Positions 2,407-34,897 of a stretch of 36,572 bases of DNA are shown here, piece after piece. The notes under the pieces were generated by a model. That model saw only the letters and a program-made list of their open reading frames with translations, had not been told where the DNA came from and did no database searches. Numbering within the stretch: position 1 is the stretch's first letter; every line of letters starts with the position of its first letter. The stretch spans positions 1 to 36,572 of the forward strand of contig NZ_DS989909.1 of assembly GCF_000155595.1 (NCBI RefSeq). The letters are read 5' to 3'. This stretch comes from Synechococcus sp. PCC 7335 (lineage in GTDB: Bacteria > Cyanobacteriota > Cyanobacteriia > Phormidesmidales > Phormidesmidaceae). The translations under genes were made by a program, and so were the position numbers.

Positions 2407-3984
2407 TTACAAATTGCATCTTTCTACAGCAGACGAGAAGATAAACCATCCAGACGAGCTGAAAGAAGAAGAACCACCAACACGTCGAAAAAGTGAACCG
2501 CCAGCACCAGAGTCAAAATACATAGAGTGAGGGAAATGTCCGACAGGGGCTGCGTACGAAAATATCAAATCAGTAGAGTCGAAGTGCATAGCATCGAAAG
2601 GATCCAAGATTCCATCTGCACCTACGCCTGGAAAATCTTCAACCCAGCCTACCTTCTCTCGATAATCTGCTATGGCGATTCTATCGTATGCTCTTGTACC
2701 ACCGACTTCTTGATAAAGTCGATACTGAGACTTGATACCAAATCGTCCGTCGCTATAGAAAGACCAGAGACTATCAATGATTCGCAAATCTTCACATGCT
2801 TGCTCTAAAAAGTAGTCGCTTACGTATCCACCTTCAGCAAGCAAGAGCGTTGTCAATGTATCTGCTTCTAGCAAGTTTCCAGCGGCCAAGGCATCTCTGA
2901 GAGGCTGATAACTAACACCTCTCACGCTAGAAAGTTGAATAGGCTGTGATGTACCGGGTCGATTTATAAATGGGCTATGTGGCCTAAGTCCCGTCGCGTT
3001 CTCTGATGAGATAGTTCCTGAACTAGGTTGAGACTGTTGTGGCACCACGACGACTGAGTTCTCATCCATCGCTGTTTCCTGCTGCTGGGCCGAACTGATT
3101 ATATCTTCAGATGGATTGAGGGAGAATGAACCTACAAGAGTTTCTGTATACCAGGGGCGTTGTTTTCCATCTGTCTCTCTGATAACATCTGTTCTAACTC
3201 TCCTGAACATAGCAGCGATGTCCTCACCCTCGTTCAGAATATGCCTTAAAAGACTAGCTGTGTATGGAGAATTTCGACCCTTACCATCATCAGCAACATT
3301 TCCTGGCCCTGTAGAAAACGATAATATTGTACCCTCCGGAGGAATCTCAGAAGCCAATCCTCTTTCTACAGATCGGGAACGACTTCCAGAACGCCAGCGT
3401 CGATAGAATGGATTGTCCCGACAAGCGTCGACAATTATTAAATTGACCTGAGATTCTGACTCTTCCATAGCATCTAAAACTCTTCCAAGCGCAAGGGCTT
3501 CATAGCGTACATCACTCTGACGAGTCAAGCTTGCGCCGAGAGGTATCAGATAGTTCTCTCCTTCGGCCTGAGCCCCATGACCAGCGTAATAAAAGGCTCC
3601 AATGCTTCCCTGCTGTAGCTGCTGATAAAAACCTTCTAGAGCATTCTCCATACTTCTTAAGTCTTGATCTAGAAGTAATGTAACCTCGAAACCCAAAGTG
3701 CGTAATGCTGCTGCGATATCGGTAGCATCGTTGACTGGATTATCTAGAGGATCTTCTATGTAGTTAGCATTACCAACTACCAAAGCAACACGGGACTGTC
3801 TCTGCTGAGCTAATAATTGAGTCGCAAAGCTATTAATTAAACTAGAAGACGAGATGGTCAGAGCCGTAGGGGATCCGTCCTGTCTCGCAGACCTAGTAGC
3901 TTTTGCCTCTGTATAGGTAGGGCTAACTAGTACAGTGAAAGCCAAACTAAAAGAGAGCTTTGCAGTAGTAGACAATTTCATCAT
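2407..3984 (-). CDS. Exported caspase-fold peptidase (C14, orthocaspase-like) with C-terminal GUN4 domain
   Basis: 525 aa. Residues 1-28 look like a signal peptide (basic start, hydrophobic LSFSLAFTVLV, then TEAKA), so the protein is probably exported or periplasmic. Residues 64-290 are a caspase p20-type domain: RVALVVGNANY opens the fold, His136 is in YYAGHG and Cys188 in VDACRDNPF, so the His-Cys dyad is complete; the conserved RNSPYTASLL follows. After a Ser/Gln-rich linker (295-350), residues about 355-500 match the GUN4 domain: LRDALAAGNLLEADTLT, CEDLRIIDSLWSFYSDGRFG, YRLYQEVGG, VGWVEDFP, LIFSYAAPVGHFP and LFRRV. GUN4 is known to bind Mg-porphyrins and stimulate Mg-chelatase. A protease with a porphyrin-binding tail suggests activation by, or cleavage near, chlorophyll intermediates (inference). 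A close paralogue of the protease half lies at 5500-6918; an insertion sequence now separates the two. Confidence 0.88.
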   Translation of the reverse strand: MMKLSTTAKLSFSLAFTVLVSPTYTEAKATRSARQDGSPTALTISSSSLINSFATQLLAQQRQSRVALVVGNANYIEDPLDNPVNDATDIAAALRTLGFEVTLLLDQDLRSMENALEGFYQQLQQGSIGAFYYAGHGAQAEGENYLIPLGASLTRQSDVRYEALALGRVLDAMEESESQVNLIIVDACRDNPFYRRWRSGSRSRSVERGLASEIPPEGTILSFSTGPGNVADDGKGRNSPYTASLLRHILNEGEDIAAMFRRVRTDVIRETDGKQRPWYTETLVGSFSLNPSEDIISSAQQQETAMDENSVVVVPQQSQPSSGTISSENATGLRPHSPFINRPGTSQPIQLSSVRGVSYQPLRDALAAGNLLEADTLTTLLLAEGGYVSDYFLEQACEDLRIIDSLWSFYSDGRFGIKSQYRLYQEVGGTRAYDRIAIADYREKVGWVEDFPGVGADGILDPFDAMHFDSTDLIFSYAAPVGHFPHSMYFDSGAGGSLFRRVGGSSSFSSSGWFIFSSAVERCNL

Positions 3985-4119: not shown

Positions 4120-5445
4120 CTGATTGGCTGACAAAAGTTTAATCAGGAACAAACTTAACGGTAATCACGCTGAAATCGAGCAAGCGCCCGGACTTCTTGT
4201 TGTGTTGTGGCCTAGAAGCCATCGCCGGTTGCGGATCAATGTGAGAGGTAAAACAAGCCTGTTTAATCACCTGCCAACCGTTGAGCAGAGCCGCCTTAGT
4301 CCACTCCAATCCGATGCGAAAGTAGCTGTTGCCTCTATCCCAGTGTGTGTCAATCCATCGCCTACGGCCTGATTGCACAACCGCTACGCCTTGAGCCGTG
4401 ACGTAAAGCGTGGCTACTGCCAGAATAAACCATAAGCGAGAGAGGTCAGTGAGGCCTCGAATCTCAGAGCGTTGTAGATTCCAACCGGCGGACTGGTCGT
4501 CTAAAAATCCTTCCTCGATATCGAAGCGCAAGGCATATTCCATAAAGGTTTGCGGGCTAGTGGGCTGGTCGCTGACGACGGCCCAAAGTTCACCATTGAT
4601 GTTGTTGCGCCCGATGATGACATGCACTGGGCCGTACTGTTCGTGACGATGGAGTCTGATGTGGTGGAAACATAGTGCCCGACCTCGTTCTAGGTGAAAC
4701 GATTTAGGTTGACACCAGCCGGAACCGGGTCGCCAAATCCAGGTGTCACTTTTGATACGGATGCGGTAGTGCCAGCCGAGTTGTTTTATCAGCGTCATCG
4801 CACGGGTATGCACAAAGCCTCGGTCGGCCAACAGAATCATGTTTGCGTTTGAAGGCAAGTATTGCGTAGACTGCCTGAGCAGTTCTTCATAGGCTTCAAA
4901 CGCAACAGAGGCACTGTTGTGTTCTAGAACTCGCCAAGCCAGAGGAATGGAGCGGCCTCGATACACCACGGCTAGCCGAATTAAGCAGTACTGCTCCCAA
5001 AACAGCGAGGTGTCTAAACAAAGATAAAGGCACTCGGCTTCCCAGGTCGCCAAGGCCGCTTGAATCAGCGGTTTGTACAATCGGTGGATGTTGATGCGGC
5101 TATTGCCTAACCAGCGACGCACCCGTCTTTGTTTACTCTGGGCGTAGAGACCGCGACAGGGCAAGTAGGTTGTCCACTTTGTCAGGCTGACGCTGCCGGT
5201 TTGAATCAGCGCAAACACCATCCAACAGCAGGTCGTTAGATGCGATAGATGTGCCCAGGGGCAATCTTGACCCAGCCAGGCTTTCAAGGCATCGTAGAGG
5301 CGGGAGTTTTTTTCACAGCGTTCCTTTGGTTTTGAGTTGCATCTAAATCTTAGAACGCTGGCTCCCCCTCGCAACCTTTGCGGCTCTCAAGTCCCTGTAT
5401 GACAGCGATTCAACCTGGCTATTGCATCTTTTGTCAGCCAATCAG
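4120..5445 (-). mobile_element. Complete IS4-type insertion sequence, 1326 bp
   Basis: Both ends carry the same 18-bp terminal inverted repeat: CTGATTGGCTGACAAAAG at 4120-4137 and its reverse complement at 5428-5445. The 9 bases CAGGTATGC immediately flank both sides (4111-4119 and 5446-5454), a perfect target-site duplication. One transposase gene fills the element. Perfect ends and duplication point to a recent insertion. It lies between the two caspase genes in their own orientation, so it may either interrupt their co-transcription or supply a new promoter to the downstream one. Confidence 0.95.
4139..5374 (-). CDS. IS4-family DDE transposase
   Basis: 411 aa from a TTG start at 5374. An RNase-H-like DDE core is visible: first Asp in LCLDTSLFW, second in LLADRGFVH, and the glutamate in the IS4 signature region YALRFDIEEGFLDDQ. 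This fits the Y(2)R(3)E(6)K motif except that the last Lys is Gln. The frame ends two bases beyond the left inverted repeat, so the coding region spans nearly the whole element. The lack of a good ATG makes the exact start uncertain; a purine-rich AAAGG precedes the TTG. The protein carries out cut-and-paste transposition of its own element and has no link to the neighbouring genes. Confidence 0.92.
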   Translation of the reverse strand: MRGGASVLRFRCNSKPKERCEKNSRLYDALKAWLGQDCPWAHLSHLTTCCWMVFALIQTGSVSLTKWTTYLPCRGLYAQSKQRRVRRWLGNSRINIHRLYKPLIQAALATWEAECLYLCLDTSLFWEQYCLIRLAVVYRGRSIPLAWRVLEHNSASVAFEAYEELLRQSTQYLPSNANMILLADRGFVHTRAMTLIKQLGWHYRIRIKSDTWIWRPGSGWCQPKSFHLERGRALCFHHIRLHRHEQYGPVHVIIGRNNINGELWAVVSDQPTSPQTFMEYALRFDIEEGFLDDQSAGWNLQRSEIRGLTDLSRLWFILAVATLYVTAQGVAVVQSGRRRWIDTHWDRGNSYFRIGLEWTKAALLNGWQVIKQACFTSHIDPQPAMASRPQHNKKSGRLLDFSVITVKFVPD

Positions 5446-5499: not shown

Positions 5500-6918
5500 C
5501 TACCTCGATCGACACGCATGGTACCAGGACTCGCGTTCACGAACATCGGGGTATGCTTCTATCGCAGCTGCTTCGTCACTTATAAAAATTGATAGGTAGT
5601 TTGGGGTCGTACCTTGAGGTCGAGTCAGACTCAGCAAATTTAAGGAGAAGCTCTGTTCTGTTGTAGACTGAGCGAGCAAGGTGTACAGTTCTCTAGCCGC
5701 TGAGTCCTCGTACGGCTCATAGCGAATTTCTGACCAAGAGCATATTCCTAGCTCCCTTGCCTTACCCAACGAATACGGTTTAATCTCTACAGATTCGAGA
5801 CCAGAGGCAAGTAAGTTTTCTTGTATAGATAAAGCTCGTCTTCGTAGATCTGGTCTACTAGAAGAGAAAAATATGTCGATGTTGTAGCCGATTAGTGAAC
5901 TGATACGTGAGTTCACAGGAAGTGGCTGAGTTTGTGGCAGGGAAGAAGTAGGTGCCGTTGATAGGGAGGAGCTTGAGGATGTAGAGGTAGGCTCCTCACG
6001 AGAAAGGGTAGAAGGTTCTGGTAATGTATCACTATTCAACACTGGGTTTAGTGAGAAGAAGCCAACTAGCGACTCCTGATACCAAGGAATTTGTTTTCTT
6101 TCTGTTTCTTGTAAAACGTCAGCACGAACTGACCTTAGAACAGTGCTTATGTCAACGCCTTCTCTATCTATATGCTGTAGCAGGCTTGCTGTATACGGAG
6201 AATTTCGTCCTACACCATCAGAAGCGACATTACCAGGACTTGTTGCAAAAGAAATTACTGTTCCCTCTGGCGGAACCTGTGCCGCTAGTCCTCTTGATGA
6301 AGATAGATTGCGATCGCGCGGTCGCCAGCGTCGGTAAAAGGGATTGTCTCGACAAGCATCGATTAGAATGAGATTGACTCGTGACTCTGACTCCTCCATC
6401 ACATTCAAGACTTTTCCCAGGGCCAAAGCGTCATAGCGTACGTCATTTTGACTAGCCAAACGTGCGTTTAGAGGGATTAAGTAGTTTTCTCCATTCACTT
6501 GAACACCATGACCAGCATAGTAGAAAGCTCCAATGCTTCCTTCTCGCAGCTGTCGGCTGAAGATTTCCAAAGCATCTTCCATATCTTTTAAGTCTTTATT
6601 CAGCAGCAGAGTAACCTCAAATCCTAACGCACGCAACGCTTCTGCTATGTCCGTAGCATCGTTTACCGGATTAGCCAAAAAATCGTCTGCATAGTTGGCA
6701 TTACCAATCACTAACGCAACGCGAGACTGCGTCTGCTGCGCTAATAGTCGGGTCACGGTGGAGCTATCCATCAGATCATGTACTGAGCTATTCACAGGCT
6801 CAAAAGTACTACTTTGTTCAGATGCTATGGTAGCCTCAGCCGCCGGAATAGACAGAGTGGTCAAGATAGTGGCTAACAAACTTGAGTACATTCTTCTACT
6901 GATAAAAGAATTATTCAT
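5500..6918 (-). CDS. Exported caspase-fold peptidase (C14, orthocaspase-like) with distinct C-terminal domain
   Basis: 472 aa from the ATG at 6918; the two extra upstream codons would begin with TTG and are less likely. The N-terminal 30 residues look like a signal peptide (RR, hydrophobic SSLLATILTTLSI, AAEA). The caspase domain is very close to that of the 2407-3984 protein: RVALVIGNANY, His137 in FYYAGHG, Cys189 in IDACRDNPF, then GRNSPYTASLL. Both catalytic residues are present. A Ser/Thr/Pro-rich linker (about 303-340) separates it from a C-terminal region about 345-472 with YNIDIFFSSSRPDLRRRA and ELGICSWSEIRYEPYEDSAA, which is not GUN4 and which I cannot assign. It starts 34 bp after the LSm-like gene, so the two are probably one transcript. 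Caspase-like proteases cleave after basic residues in known orthocaspases; substrates here are unknown. Confidence 0.9.
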   Translation of the reverse strand: MNNSFISRRMYSSLLATILTTLSIPAAEATIASEQSSTFEPVNSSVHDLMDSSTVTRLLAQQTQSRVALVIGNANYADDFLANPVNDATDIAEALRALGFEVTLLLNKDLKDMEDALEIFSRQLREGSIGAFYYAGHGVQVNGENYLIPLNARLASQNDVRYDALALGKVLNVMEESESRVNLILIDACRDNPFYRRWRPRDRNLSSSRGLAAQVPPEGTVISFATSPGNVASDGVGRNSPYTASLLQHIDREGVDISTVLRSVRADVLQETERKQIPWYQESLVGFFSLNPVLNSDTLPEPSTLSREEPTSTSSSSSLSTAPTSSLPQTQPLPVNSRISSLIGYNIDIFFSSSRPDLRRRALSIQENLLASGLESVEIKPYSLGKARELGICSWSEIRYEPYEDSAARELYTLLAQSTTEQSFSLNLLSLTRPQGTTPNYLSIFISDEAAAIEAYPDVRERESWYHACRSR

Positions 6919-6952
6919 ATTCAAACTAAATTATGTCTGTCTCAACAAGTCA

Positions 6953-26035: not shown

Positions 26036-28201
26036 ATGTCCAGCTCTTTTAATGACAGTCCCGTTCAAGATATTCAAGATGACCACTATGGTATTACCCC
26101 TTTCGCTAAATCTCTGGCTAAGAGCATAGTTCGTATAAAAGATCCAAGAGGTACGACAATTGCACTAAATGGTGCCTGGGGCTCTGGAAAAAGTAGCGTT
26201 ATTAACTTACTCCGTGGCGAACTTGAGGATTTGAACGAAGAGACGTTAGTCGTATCAGAATTTAAGTGCTGGTGGTACAGAGGGGACGAGGCTTTGGCTT
26301 TGGCCTTCCTACAAAATCTGAACACTATTCTACGTGTCACTTTAGGAGATAAGGTTAAAGGCCTGATTCCTAGTATTGGACGCAATTTACTGCAAGCGGG
26401 TAAGGTATTAGGCTCCACTATTGCATTGACATCTCCAGGAATAATAGGTGCAGCTACAAGCACAGCACTGGACTTTGCAGAAAAGTTTTTTCCTCAAGAA
26501 GATACGCTAGAAACAACTTTCAGTAGACTGTCAGAAGCATTGGAGAAGGCAGATAGACGGTTCTTAATCATCATTGATGATATTGATAGGCTAGGTGCTG
26601 AAGAAGCAATAGCTATCTTCAGACTAGTGAAATCAGTTGGTCGATTGCCTAACGTTTTATATCTGCTTGCCTTTGATAGAACGCTAGTAGACAAAGCGGT
26701 CAATAAGCTATATCCATCTGAGGGAGCACACTTCCTTGAGAAGATTGTTCAAGCATCATTTGAGATGCCTGAACCATTACAGGCAGATCTCAACGTAGCA
26801 ATCTCTAAAGCTATTGAAGAGGGATGTAGTACAGATGTTTATGATAACGAAAAGCGTCTCGTGAGCGCTTTCTACGATGTGATTGTACGTTACATCACTA
26901 GCCCACGGGATGTTGTCCGCTTTCGTAACACAATCAGTATAACTTGGCCTATGATCGCTGACGAAGTTGACCTAGCAGACTTCATTACTTTAGAAACTCT
27001 TCGACTGCACGAGCCAGAACTGTTCCAAGCTATCAGAACGAACAGAAATAAAGTTTGCACACTCATGAGTGGAGTCCAACCCAAAAGTGATAAAGATGAT
27101 TCCTTACACGAACTCCTAGCTACTGTTGATGAGCCTCGTCGCGCAACAGCTGAGACTGCGTTAAAGATTCTATTTCCTCTACTGCGCTCCGTAGGATACG
27201 TTGGGTATGAACGTCGGTGGGATGAAGAACGATTAGTCTGTATCGATAAGCACTTTGACACTTACTTCCGACTGACTCTAAGTAATACATCTCTTTCTAC
27301 TATAAAGATTCAACAGCTCATTGAGCGCGCTGATGACGTAGAGTTCATCAAAAAGACTTTTCTTGAAGCATACTCAACTGTCAGGAATACAGGTTCAACC
27401 ATGGTTCCAGTCTTTCTTGATGAACTGATGACTCATGCAAGAAGGGTAGATAAATCAAAGGTCTCTCACCTCATATCAGCCTTATTCTCTATACATGACG
27501 AAATTAGCTCGCCAAATGATGACGAGGCAGTCACTAACTGGTTCGGTAACTCGACTACACTAAAATACCATTGGTTACTTGAGCGCCTTACAGAAAAGCG
27601 ATTCTCTATAGACGAACGTACAGATCTCTATCTTTCTGCAATAGAATGCTCTTCGCTGGGTTGGACAGTTGACTTCGTAGCCTCGCTTATAGACGATTAT
27701 CGGTCACAAGAAGAAGATAGACCCCAAAAACAAAGTGAATACCGTGTCAAGGAAGAAGCACTTCCTATGTTTGTGGAAAAGGCGCTAGCGCAGATTCACG
27801 AGGCTGCTGCTGACTTGTCACTTCTTCACTATGCCAATCTTTCAACTATTCTCCATAGATGGAAAAGCTTTTGCAATAATGACCTATCTGAAGTAAGACA
27901 GTGGACTGACCTTCTGATAGACAAAGATGAATTCGTTATCGTACTAGCAAAGGCTTTTACAGGATACGGTTTAGGTCATTCTGTAGATATATCTGGCCTC
28001 AACAACTATGTAGTAGACAAAATAACGCAGATTCAGATATACGAAAATACAGATGTAATCGACCAGATTGCCTTTAAAGATGCACTAGAGCGTATACTCA
28101 ACCAGAAAAGACTAGACCAGCATTCACTAGACCTAGTTGAATCCTTCTTGAGAGCGTGGAATAAGAAGAAAACTAAGAGCAGTGAGACTGTGATGTCATA
28201 A
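26036..28201 (+). CDS. KAP-family P-loop NTPase
   Basis: 721 aa. Walker A GAWGSGKSS (46-54) is followed by a membrane-like hydrophobic segment at about 118-145 (LLQAGKVLGSTIALTSPGII), and Walker B with the KAP signature FLIIIDDIDRLGAEEAI at 176-192, then LYLLAFDRTLVDKAV. A hydrophobic insertion between Walker A and B is characteristic of KAP NTPases, large membrane-associated STAND-like proteins. Bacterial members are patchily spread on mobile elements, and several are suspected or shown to act against phages. The 410-residue C-terminus is helical and unassigned. The gene stands alone within the 25852-32838 repeat-bounded segment. Role in defence is inference. Confidence 0.87.
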   Translation: MSSSFNDSPVQDIQDDHYGITPFAKSLAKSIVRIKDPRGTTIALNGAWGSGKSSVINLLRGELEDLNEETLVVSEFKCWWYRGDEALALAFLQNLNTILRVTLGDKVKGLIPSIGRNLLQAGKVLGSTIALTSPGIIGAATSTALDFAEKFFPQEDTLETTFSRLSEALEKADRRFLIIIDDIDRLGAEEAIAIFRLVKSVGRLPNVLYLLAFDRTLVDKAVNKLYPSEGAHFLEKIVQASFEMPEPLQADLNVAISKAIEEGCSTDVYDNEKRLVSAFYDVIVRYITSPRDVVRFRNTISITWPMIADEVDLADFITLETLRLHEPELFQAIRTNRNKVCTLMSGVQPKSDKDDSLHELLATVDEPRRATAETALKILFPLLRSVGYVGYERRWDEERLVCIDKHFDTYFRLTLSNTSLSTIKIQQLIERADDVEFIKKTFLEAYSTVRNTGSTMVPVFLDELMTHARRVDKSKVSHLISALFSIHDEISSPNDDEAVTNWFGNSTTLKYHWLLERLTEKRFSIDERTDLYLSAIECSSLGWTVDFVASLIDDYRSQEEDRPQKQSEYRVKEEALPMFVEKALAQIHEAAADLSLLHYANLSTILHRWKSFCNNDLSEVRQWTDLLIDKDEFVIVLAKAFTGYGLGHSVDISGLNNYVVDKITQIQIYENTDVIDQIAFKDALERILNQKRLDQHSLDLVESFLRAWNKKKTKSSETVMS

Positions 28202-31086: not shown

Positions 31087-31783
31087 TCCACTCTGAGACA
31101 GTTGAGACTCAGGTGTTCTCCTTGTCCGCATTCTGCGATCACAGAGTATAGTTGATACTCTGAATACTCATGCTTATTCAGGTGTAAGCATTGGTTAATT
31201 CTAGCTTTACTGGCTAGCTTGATACAGCTACTTTTAGCTACCGTCTTTAGTCACATTCATGATCCTTCGATAGCCAACAACTGCATCAGCGGCGCATTCT
31301 TTTAGTCTGCTTCTAGCAAGTGCAACAGCTTCATCTGAATGCCAGAATACATACTGCTCAGCAGTCTGGCGAGAGCGTTAGGAGAGTTCCTTTGTGTTGA
31401 CAGTAAGTTCTGACAACTTGAGGAAAGACACAATGAGAAAGCCTTTTCATGGCTGTGTGTTCGCACAGCCTAGCTACGTTTCCATACTGAAATATCAAAC
31501 GAAATCATTGATAGATAGCACTCAGGTTTTATCAATACTTTGAAAGCACCAGTACGCGATCACATGAGACAAACGGCGCGTGTCCATGTCAATCAGTAAG
31601 CTACATCAAATAAAGCTAGCTCCATATCGAGCGCATTGGTATGCAAGGTGCAAAGCATTGCATGTCAATAAAGTAAAAGCTTGAATCCATTGCTGTGAAA
31701 GAGATTACGTGGCCATGCCAGGAACGAGTCTCAATTGTCCCATTGTGGACTATACCTTTTTGAGGGTTAGTGCAAAAACCCCC
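31053..31783. mobile_element. 731-bp non-coding element with 56-bp terminal inverted repeats (TIME/MITE-like)
   Basis: Both ends begin GGGGGTTTTTGCAC. The first 56 bases (31053-31108) match the reverse complement of 31728-31783 at 49 positions. A GGGG start and long inverted repeats point to Tn3-derived miniature elements. Inside I find no convincing gene, only two small hairpins, GAGTAT/ATACTC near 31145 and GGCTGTG/CACAGCC near 31450. The flanks differ (truncated tnpA on the left, truncated RNase on the right) and show no target duplication, so the surroundings were rearranged after insertion. Confidence 0.8.
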
Positions 31784-32244
31784 TCGTAGGAAAAGCGTTT
31801 GGCGCTGACTATCCAGGACTCGTAGATCTCGGTGGTCTGGATCTCGGCTTGGTGGTTCAGGCTGACTTGGATGGTGAGGGTAGGACGCGGCTGGCCTTCT
31901 AGCAGGCTGAGCTTATCTTCGGATAGGGCAGGCGGCAGCATCGGTAGGTTGCCGCGACTCAGGTAGTGGGTACAGGTGCGGGCGATGGCGACTTTGTCTA
32001 AGACAGTGCCAGCGGTGACTAGCTCTGATACGTCAGCGATATGGATAGCGGCGATCGCACCCGTGGGGGTGGCTTCCAAGTAGATGGCATCATCGAGGTC
32101 TTTGGAGGTGGGGCCGTCGATGGTGACTCCCTGCACCTGGGGGCGTTGCCATAGGCGCTCGGGGAGGCTCAGCGCTGCGGCCTGGTCGCTTGCCTGTAAC
32201 CAGACTTTGTTCAACGCTTGGGTAGGACGGGTAGACGTTGACAT
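31750..32244 (-). pseudogene. RNase II/R-type (RNB domain) gene fragment
   Basis: 164 codons from the ATG at 32244. The RNB active-site region is present: VTIDGPTSKDLDDAIYLE with the acidic cluster, IHIADVSELV, and CTHYLSRGNLPMLPPALSED. The homologous part stops near 31784 in SYEG and is replaced by VFALTLKKV, encoded by the inverted repeat of the neighbouring element. The family normally continues for several hundred residues, so this is a 3'-truncated copy. It would have been a 3'-5' exoribonuclease. The end VF, then LEKV or LKKV, is shared with the transposase fragment because both genes run into the same repeat. Confidence 0.85.
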
Positions 32245-34135: not shown

Positions 34136-34206
34136 TTAGGCACCCAATAGTCTTGATGCTCCTCGCAAGGATTGCCCTCGGTATGCCTTGTGTGAAGGAG
34201 ATTTTC

Positions 34207-34488
34207 ATGCGCGTCAGTAAGTGCTATGTCATTCACGAGTTCTTAGAAGACCATCCTGAGGCTGAGCGATCGCTTCAGCTATGGCACAAAATTGTGTCCT
34301 GTGGATGCTGGAAAAACCTAAAGGAACTAAGCCAAACCTTTCCTGAATCAAAAAGAGTTGGAAAACTCACTACTTTCAGCATAGGCAACGGTAGATTTCT
34401 TGTTTCAGCAACCATAGATTACAGGGGGCAACGACTGTTTATCCGCAATGTACTTAGGTCTGCGGGTCATGAAGAACAGCAACCTTAA
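34207..34488 (+). CDS. higB: HigB-type toxin (mRNA interferase)
   Basis: 93 aa from the ATG at 34207, chosen because AAGGAG lies seven bases upstream; earlier in-frame starts would add 18 unrelated residues. MRVSKCYVIHEFLEDHPEAE, then LQLWHKIVSCGCWKNLKELSQTFP, GKLTTFSIGNGRFLVSATID and RGQRLFIRNVL follow the HigB/RelE layout (compare F.E.HP.A...L..W.......W.N..D....FP). It would cut mRNA at ribosomes when unopposed. The C-terminal tail is shorter and less typical than usual (the G-T-H-A-E-Y-D motif is altered to AGHEEQQ), which may lower activity. Toxin-first order with the antitoxin overlapping is typical of higBA. Confidence 0.88.
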   Translation: MRVSKCYVIHEFLEDHPEAERSLQLWHKIVSCGCWKNLKELSQTFPESKRVGKLTTFSIGNGRFLVSATIDYRGQRLFIRNVLRSAGHEEQQP

Positions 34489-34897
34489 GACTAAAGGACG
34501 AAGCTACCAGGAGCTTCTGGTAGCTTTTCATCCTAAGGTCATCAAATCCAAATCAGGGTTAGACGCCACTGTAGAGGTGGTTGAATCGTTGATGAATAAG
34601 GAAGAGCTAACAACCGATGAGAAGGACTACAAAGAACTACTCATTATGCTGATAGATGATTACGAGGAGAAGAAATTCTCCATTTCAGACATCTACGGAG
34701 TTGAGCTGCTCAAGGGACTGATGAAAGAGCGAGGTCTTCGTCAGAAAGATCTGGTTCACATCTTTAAGACGAAATCGGTAGTTTCTGAGATATTAAGCGG
34801 TCAGCGAGAGCTGACCCCGCAGTATACTAGGAGGCTGGCCGAATACTTCAACATCCCAGATTCCGCATTCTATCCTCTCCAAACCCATGATATTTAA
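34469..34897 (+). CDS. higA: HigA-type antitoxin, XRE helix-turn-helix
   Basis: 142 aa from the ATG at 34469, overlapping higB by 20 bases; an ATG at 34448 is also in frame. The N-terminal part SYQELLVAFHPKVIKS, then EVVESLMNKEELTTDEKDYK and LIMLIDDYEEKKF is the antitoxin region. The C-terminal XRE domain is LLKGLMKERGLRQKDLVHIF, KTKSVVSEILSGQRELTPQY and TRRLAEYFNIPDSAFYP. It neutralises HigB and represses the operon. A 10-bp perfect stem lies within its first codons (34501-34510 with 34517-34526, then TTT), resembling a terminator inside the gene. Confidence 0.92.
   Translation: MKNSNLKTKGRSYQELLVAFHPKVIKSKSGLDATVEVVESLMNKEELTTDEKDYKELLIMLIDDYEEKKFSISDIYGVELLKGLMKERGLRQKDLVHIFKTKSVVSEILSGQRELTPQYTRRLAEYFNIPDSAFYPLQTHDI

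Follow-up and report, generated by a model that had tools for sequence, protein, structure and literature searches.

A caspase-GUN4 protein with changed ligand positions and a probable signal peptide, and the hypervariable tails of related cyanobacterial GUN4 fusions

Fusions of GUN4 to other domains have until now been interpreted as pigment sensors that serve signalling and programmed cell death. The window analysed here, a stretch of 36,572 bases that is the entire contig C6 of an 11-contig cyanobacterial assembly, carries a gene in which GUN4 follows a caspase domain and an N terminus resembling a signal peptide. A first-pass annotation of the DNA took it for a porphyrin-binding domain in an odd place, one that could link chlorophyll precursors or light stress to proteolysis.

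The caspase-GUN4 gene and its surroundings

The open reading frame (2407-3984, minus strand, 525 amino acids; ORF list and Pfam) encodes a signal-like N terminus, a caspase, a linker, and GUN4, in agreement with the first-pass annotation. The caspase (Peptidase_C14) domain covers residues 65-285 (3130-3792, minus strand), matches the Pfam model with E 1.1e-37 and 130.4 bits against a cut-off of 21.4, and aligns to the paracaspase MALT1 with E 1.3e-17. The His-Cys dyad is intact, as had been claimed: sequence and the MALT1 alignment place His136 (3577-3579, minus strand) in YYAGHG and Cys188 (3421-3423, minus strand) in DACRDN. Proteolysis by a caspase-family enzyme is predicted from this dyad. 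The linker (residues 286-353; 2926-3129, minus strand) is modelled by AlphaFold with low confidence at 310-347, and the GUN4 domain (residues 354-487; 2524-2925, minus strand) is recognised by Pfam, AlphaFold, and Foldseek. The profile search proposed for this domain places it over the Pfam cut-off (E 5.3e-17, 62.7 bits against 29.2). AlphaFold models built from 25 and 27 aligned sequences contain a caspase of high confidence, a linker of low confidence, a GUN4 core, a low-confidence stretch at 485-508 that corresponds to the former ligand loop, and a last helix at 511-522. The model of the GUN4 part had 11 Foldseek matches at E ≤ 0.001, all to GUN4 structures, and against the PDB the top 14 matches were GUN4 chains (E 2.1e-4 to 1.6e-3), with the next at E 9.1; as modelled, this part of the protein is a genuine GUN4 fold. 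An assembly error is an unlikely origin of the fusion, since L042, L049, and L052, from three other genomes, have their domains in the identical order.

The N terminus (residues 1-29; 3898-3984, minus strand), MMKLSTTAKLSFSLAFTVLVSPTYTEAKA, looks by eye like a signal peptide, with charge, a hydrophobic core, and a putative cleavage site at an AKA motif. Its 10-residue hydropathy maximum of 2.11 lies within the range of the exported relatives, among which 16 of 18 other rows reach at least 1.46; the lower values are those of L057 (0.88) and L120 (0.64), and the rows of L119 and L120 began at a non-Met residue. By one script, the maximum tops that of 21 of 22 other GUN4 fusions, a set in which the exception (L074, 2.48) is an off-target ORF and the start of L084 (1.67) was set too late. 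Caspase-domain relatives at E ≤ 1e-20 amount to 17 matches in 14 of the 388 genomes of the class, the window's own included, and four of the 17 are exported caspase-GUN4 proteins. The place that the first-pass annotation called odd for GUN4 is thus rare, but not unique. Among ten Pfam-scanned relatives, the C-terminal modules over the cut-off are GUN4 (L042, L049, and L052, the last with its N-terminal part absent from the open frame), an M23 peptidase (L056), Lcl_C (L048), and DUF2808 (L043), while four (L044, L046, L047, and L050) have no C-terminal module over the cut-off. The fusion to M23, a peptidoglycan peptidase, fits an extracytoplasmic location. The gene for this exported caspase with M23 peptidase (L056:1372-3237) adjoins a second exported caspase gene. 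The signal-like N terminus, the exported relatives, and the M23-fused relative together leave export supported but not proven; the window protein is probably exported, and the original claim of export stands only in that weakened form.

The tree built from 21 caspase domains makes a paralog without GUN4 the sister of the window protein (support 100/99) and clusters L042 with the GUN4-free L047 and L056 (support 99/96), so exported caspases acquired GUN4, or shed it, on more than one occasion. The three cytoplasmic-looking caspase-GUN4 proteins compared have a very distant caspase (L040 18.5 bits, L061 14.7, L080 23.0), compared with 291.7 and 235.4 bits for the exported L042 and L049 on the same comparison. 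No close relative of the whole window protein was found in the searched genome contigs. An alphaproteobacterial ancestry was considered and rejected: the best plasmid match has only 44.9% identity, and transfer is unsupported by the tree, in which Azospirillum, Phaeobacter, Sinorhizobium, and Rhizobium, four of the five alphaproteobacterial rows, lie outside the 13-member clade in which the cyanobacterial exported caspases near that of the window protein are found, and Croceicoccus is the one such row inside it.

Contig C6 is likely a plasmid, judging by its genes for a MobA/MobL relaxase, a ParA-like ATPase, and a HigB-type toxin; its two ends share no exact overlap of 15-200 bases, and no DNA relative of the contig was found among plasmids. 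The paralog, an exported caspase without GUN4 identified by Pfam and comparison (5500-6924, minus strand), is 63% identical to the window protein over query residues 9-295. An insertion sequence (4120-5445), recognised by inverted repeats and Pfam, lies between the two caspase genes; it has 18-nt perfect inverted repeats at 4120-4137 and 5428-5445 and a DDE transposase (4139-5374, minus strand), is flanked on both sides by CAGGTATGC, and may have split an operon. The near end of the insertion sequence and the start codon of the caspase-GUN4 gene are 135 nt apart, with the insertion sequence on the upstream side. One reading of this arrangement is a decayed gene, poorly expressed since the insertion sequence arrived and now being lost; the perfect repeats, the separation from the paralog, and the disappearance of a 3' DNA element that ends related genes would all agree with it. 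However, insertion sequences can supply promoters, and the reading frame, the signal-like N terminus, the dyad, and the GUN4 core are all intact; decay is considered distinctly improbable.

Several other genes were seen in passing. The window also encodes a KAP-family P-loop NTPase (26036-28201, E 1.8e-45), of a class fused to hypervariable-tail GUN4 in one of 49 proteins, a HigB-type toxin gene with an overlapping helix-turn-helix gene (34153-34897), probably a toxin-antitoxin pair, and a short RNB-domain protein of 164 amino acids (31750-32244; model positions 10-129 of 326), probably a truncated ribonuclease. The genome has seven caspase loci and three GUN4 loci, namely a true GUN4 on contig C1, a TIR-GUN4 on contig C5 (TIR by eye), and the gene discussed here. 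The TIR-GUN4 protein (C5, 12153-12545, 353 amino acids) has the end KLFARLDDCY, which resembles the hypervariable family described below.

Ligand positions and the tail of the window protein

The ligand positions F196, N211, L213, R214, and R217 of Synechocystis GUN4 are L, M, F, D, and A in the window protein, counted ungapped from the GHLP codons and hence approximate inside the changed loop. The true GUN4 of the same genome keeps five of five, the window protein none. F196/F191 and R214/R211 matter for porphyrin binding according to passages of PMC8967248, and passages of PMC10156173 report that Asn211/219 matters for bilin binding and tie loss of the LxNxLR motif to lost bilin binding in GUN4 paralogs. 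The motif is present in one of 27 aligned GUN4 sequences, the true GUN4 of this genome, and in none of 49 further GUN4 sequences near their HLP codons. By its sequence, the GUN4 domain of the window protein would belong to the fusion (paralog) type that lacks the tetrapyrrole pocket of true GUN4. The porphyrin-binding label finds no confirmation, with all five checked pocket positions changed, Asn211 and Arg214 among them, and the link from chlorophyll precursors to proteolysis is unsupported, failing on a loss of ligand residues that the first-pass annotation had itself named as evidence against the idea. Porphyrin sensing was accordingly dropped as the leading reading.

A tetrapyrrole sensor, the idea of the first-pass annotation, may still be imagined, in which a remodelled pocket would bind a porphyrin or bilin and the protease would follow pigment or light stress. 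The GUN4 fold is retained, tetrapyrrole-dependent allosteric control is proposed for kinase-, caspase-, trypsin-, and TIR-GUN4 fusions in a passage of PMC7159879, and the tails of relatives are rich in aromatic residues (W 0.079, F 0.064). The changes at all five checked positions and the association of LxNxLR loss with lost bilin binding in paralogs speak against such a sensor, as does the failure of the replaced loop to align between close relatives, where a ligand site should be conserved; this reading is improbable.

The segment that stands in place of the canonical LxNxLR loop and of the hypervariable insert of relatives comprises residues 486-515 (90 nt; 2440-2529, minus strand), as delimited by G+T content and alignment, with model confidence that is partly low. 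Its G+T content is 0.69, compared with 0.55 in the GUN4 part of the gene. It is followed by a C-terminal helix, FSSAVERCNL (2410-2439, minus strand), the protein-level counterpart of the FSRVETCKL end of relatives. The 3' DNA element was detected at this gene by neither profile nor pattern; the same profile finds it in L049 at E 0.0016, and in L042 the match, though correctly placed, reaches no better than E 3. With no copy of the element in the genome at ≤ 3 mismatches, the tail looks frozen, and the specificity of the gene is probably fixed. A second copy of the tail was also sought in this genome, and none was found beyond a 20-base match at E 0.16. The genome has nine RVT_1 matches, on contigs C2, C3, and C5, and none on C6. 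The hypervariability of this tail is suggested by its relatives.

Hypervariable inserts and the 3' DNA element in related genes

Many cyanobacteria have kinase-, TIR-, NACHT-, and caspase-GUN4 genes in which a hypervariable insert of 24-200 nt has taken over the position of the ligand loop. Many fusion-type GUN4 genes end with an element that is approximately TCTTCTCTCGCGTCGAGACTTGTAAACTGTAACAT and is read in three frames, as SSLASRLVNCN, LFSRVETCKL, or LLSRRDL. A first set of tails was chosen with ≤ 4 mismatches to the core, so that conservation of the core is partly by construction. Of 48 tails, 47 were kept (L105 had no anchor); relative to GUN4, the element is in frame 0 in 15 of them, in frame 1 in 18, and in frame 2 in 14, and its conservation climbs sharply at the 5' edge and extends beyond the stop codons. 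A second set came from an exact search for the DNA pattern in 84,980 bacterial and archaeal genomes and comprises at least 116 loci among the matches listed, all 116 with cyanobacterial titles, and the pattern had no match in viral contigs. Tail, openness, protein, and arm-pairing analyses used the first 80 of these at least 116 listed loci, and the other 36 listed loci served for a motif count only. The first 80 contain 84 element matches; a GUN4 motif precedes 67 of them by no more than 600 nt, and in 64 of these 67 the frame stays open through the element. Of the 17 motif-less matches, several look by eye as if they had a GHLP remnant or lay at a contig edge. The remaining 36 loci, as a check, gave 37 matches, 33 with the GUN4 motif and 32 open. 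Frames 0, 1, and 2 were counted 16, 27, and 21 times in the first 80 loci (chi-square p 0.24) and 7, 15, and 10 times in the other 36: all three are used, perhaps not equally. Across the class, the element (≤ 2 mismatches) occurs in 86 of 388 genomes and a backward control in three. In 10 genomes, a GUN4 motif adjoins 25 of the 29 distinct element sites, and by eye the other four are one GUN4 missed by the motif, two remnants, and one diverged gene.

The effectors of the tail-bearing proteins are most often kinases: Pkinase in 21, TIR_2 in eight, caspase in seven, and NACHT in five of the 49 scanned with Pfam, out of 64 proteins from which 15 short or cut ORFs were left out. Two loci (L071 and L073) encode three successive GUN4 modules; every module has a variable tail of its own, together with the element or a remnant of it that is still in frame. 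A 146-kb plasmid of Cylindrospermopsis curvispora (L253) has seven places matching a GUN4 query; the part of it that was fetched has no element within 3 mismatches and no GUN4 ORF by motif. As a weak lead, a passage of PMC10811720 names a kinase/GUN4 gene among the three mutated genes of a phage-resistant Nostoc substrain.

The inserts have a distinctive composition. After the three of 67 tails that were not open and one duplicate were dropped, 63 distinct inserts of 64 remained in the second set, 25-200 nt long with a median of 58. Insert G+T exceeds that of the upstream GUN4 DNA in 55 of these 63 (p 1e-9) and in 43 of 47 in the first set. At codon positions 1, 2, and 3 it is 0.70, 0.70, and 0.73, compared with 0.56, 0.50, and 0.50, in 106 distinct inserts from both sets; the sets overlap (L158 = L100, L170 = L014, L199 = L090), and pooled figures use distinct inserts. 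The coding frame is open in 69 of 72 inserts, compared with 27.1 ± 3.6 in shuffled ones and with 32 and 23 of 72 in the other two frames (12 of the 84 element matches, without a DNA anchor, were dropped). This excess indicates that the inserts of relatives are translated and selected.

The inserts also differ where their surroundings do not: genes with 86-100% identity in GUN4 and element DNA have inserts that cannot be aligned. The nearest exported caspase-GUN4 relatives of the window protein, L042 and L049, share 320 of 372 positions of GUN4 DNA and 203 of 229 positions of the element and downstream DNA, and their tails are unalignable and their element frames differ. The tandem genes L060 and L101 are 97% identical upstream, 93% in GUN4, and 100% in the element, with unalignable inserts, different frames, and unlike downstream DNA. 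L176 and L069 have conserved flanks (87% upstream, 91% downstream) around unalignable inserts of 73 and 45 nt, and L132 and L198 have unalignable inserts between GUN4 at 93% and an element at 100%, followed by downstream DNA at 88%, the only sides that can be compared. In the L181 tandem pair (GUN4 89%, element 98%, downstream 93%), the inserts of 106 and 41 nt have different frames, and the shorter matches the longer at 0.71 by a permissive score. Against fast turnover, two pairs of related genomes (L090 with L102, and L125 with L147) have the same tail within each pair, at an upstream identity of 92-94%. Four near-strain sets had no tail change; their GUN4 genes lack the element (≤ 3 mismatches), and those sets are therefore no test of element-linked change.

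Such variation in length and frame would also suit a passive scaffold, with GUN4 serving just to anchor or dimerise the protease and the tail tolerated as a C terminus under loose constraint. The low model confidence of the loop in the window protein is consistent with this, as are the C-terminal modules of exported caspases, which vary or go unrecognised. The openness of the coding frame argues against it, as does the SR..C end, which is kept after the insert in many of 27 aligned rows; a passive role is unlikely, if less so than the sensor. The reading preferred here, on which confidence is evenly divided, is that of an exported caspase gated by a GUN4-scaffold recognition module, formerly variable and now fixed, with a ligand that is not a pigment. 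The GUN4 scaffold would display the loop-replacing segment for recognition; once a cell-surface or foreign partner had bound it outside the cytoplasm, a change in the conformation or oligomeric state of the protein would turn on the attached protease. The plasmid copy would have lost its diversification element, which would leave its specificity probably fixed. The domains, the dyad, and the changed ligand residues are observed directly, as are, in relatives, the hypervariability and the selection for open frames; export, recognition, protease gating, and a non-pigment ligand we infer. Counting against this reading, loss of the canonical pocket is also compatible with another small ligand, and most of the 64 hypervariable GUN4 proteins look cytoplasmic by eye.

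How the tails arise is a separate matter. The start of the element recurs within three inserts and the GHLP anchor within four (0.1 and 0.04 expected in shuffles), and these repeats, together with the oriented G/T richness, suggest synthesis or repair at a fixed break. Somewhat short of an even chance is given to the broader proposal that the GUN4 fusions are a receptor repertoire, in which a dedicated, hitherto undescribed process would synthesise the loop with a fixed orientation, a G/T-rich composition, and a variable length, always at one site bounded by the GHLP codons and a conserved 3' element with usable ends in three frames, and selection would keep in-frame products wired to cell-death or signalling effectors, the exported caspase-GUN4 included. 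If true, this would be a bacterial counterpart of junctional diversity with no template-based retroelement.

Other sources of the inserts were considered. A silent cassette or template was rejected for the two genomes tested, in which there was no second copy of a tail (matches of ≤ 25 bases, E 0.16 and weaker). Capture of foreign DNA is disfavoured, because captured pieces should lack strand bias, whereas G+T makes up about 70% of the inserts at every codon position, and amino-acid selection as the cause of the G+T bias is disfavoured by the third positions (0.73 compared with 0.50). The element consensus folds into two hairpins (z -2.95), and the arms of hairpin 2 pair at 65%, compared with 24-43% for slid arms; exchange of arms among sequences gave 376 compared with 372.7 ± 5.5, so that covariation lends no support to a folded RNA or DNA element, and Rfam found nothing in the element at gathering scores. 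A classical diversity-generating retroelement, with A-to-N retrohoming from a template repeat, would give effector-fused genes a variable 3' end with a fixed DNA element behind it, the arrangement that passages of PMC7517822 describe for cyanobacterial targets, and RVT_1 genes are present in 12 of 12 genomes searched. However, the tails differ by indels and by three frames rather than by substitutions, the nearest RVT_1 gene lies about 29 kb from an element on the same contig (nine genomes mapped for both), the element sites are mostly beside GUN4, and the second copy of the tail expected from a template is absent in the genomes tested. It is very improbable that such a retroelement makes the tails of the whole family; one acting in trans may be compatible with the data.

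Relation to known systems

The family-wide tails are the notable part of these findings. No published description of variable GUN4 tails was found in the literature searched, a body to which most subscription journals do not belong and which was represented in part by excerpts. The caspase-GUN4 architecture is already known, and the probably exported form with a lost pocket is new. Cyanobacterial orthocaspases with GUN4 (PMC2853523, PMC3501461, and PMC8283722, in passages) likewise combine C14 and GUN4 in one protein with an intact His-Cys dyad, and GUN4 occurs in 29 of 473 orthocaspases in PMC8283722. The window caspase differs in being of the exported type, very distant from that of the three cytoplasmic-looking caspase-GUN4 proteins, and the same passages contain no mention of pocket loss or a variable tail. 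True GUN4, the Mg-chelatase activator (1y6i, 1z3x, and 4xkc), has the same fold and shares the helical core with the LW..S.G.FG...Q signature, whereas the window protein is changed at F196, N211, L213, R214, and R217, is probably exported, and is fused to a protease. The GUN4 paralogs without a bilin motif (PMC10156173) also lack LxNxLR, but as far as the passages available describe them they have residue loss only, while replacement by an insert, use of several frames, and a 3' DNA element are features of the fusions described here.

PDLC04062, one of the PADLOC models for the anti-phage kinase PD-T4-6, has matches to the GUN4 parts of two proteins, the window protein (E 2.5e-15) and a kinase-GUN4 protein. 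The window protein has no kinase and only the GUN4 portion of the model is matched, which is no evidence of membership.

Loss of the ligand loop in the compared fusions, with selected hypervariable tails in its place, argues for recognition rather than the pigment sensing assumed earlier. If a dedicated process makes the tails, cyanobacteria would have a means of receptor diversification distinct from retroelement hypermutation and tied to effector types also known from anti-phage immunity, and the exported caspase form would put such a receptor outside the cytoplasm. A parallel exists with the effector-fused receptors of cyanobacteria and other multicellular bacteria that are diversified by retroelements (PMC7517822 and PMC10907252, in passages), which also join an effector (kinase, caspase, or TIR) to a C-terminal variable module with a 3' variable region. 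Those receptors are described there as having a C-type lectin scaffold, mutation at template adenines, and a reverse transcriptase with its template; the GUN4 fusions, in contrast, have a GUN4 scaffold, indels, three reading frames, and no linked reverse transcriptase that was seen.
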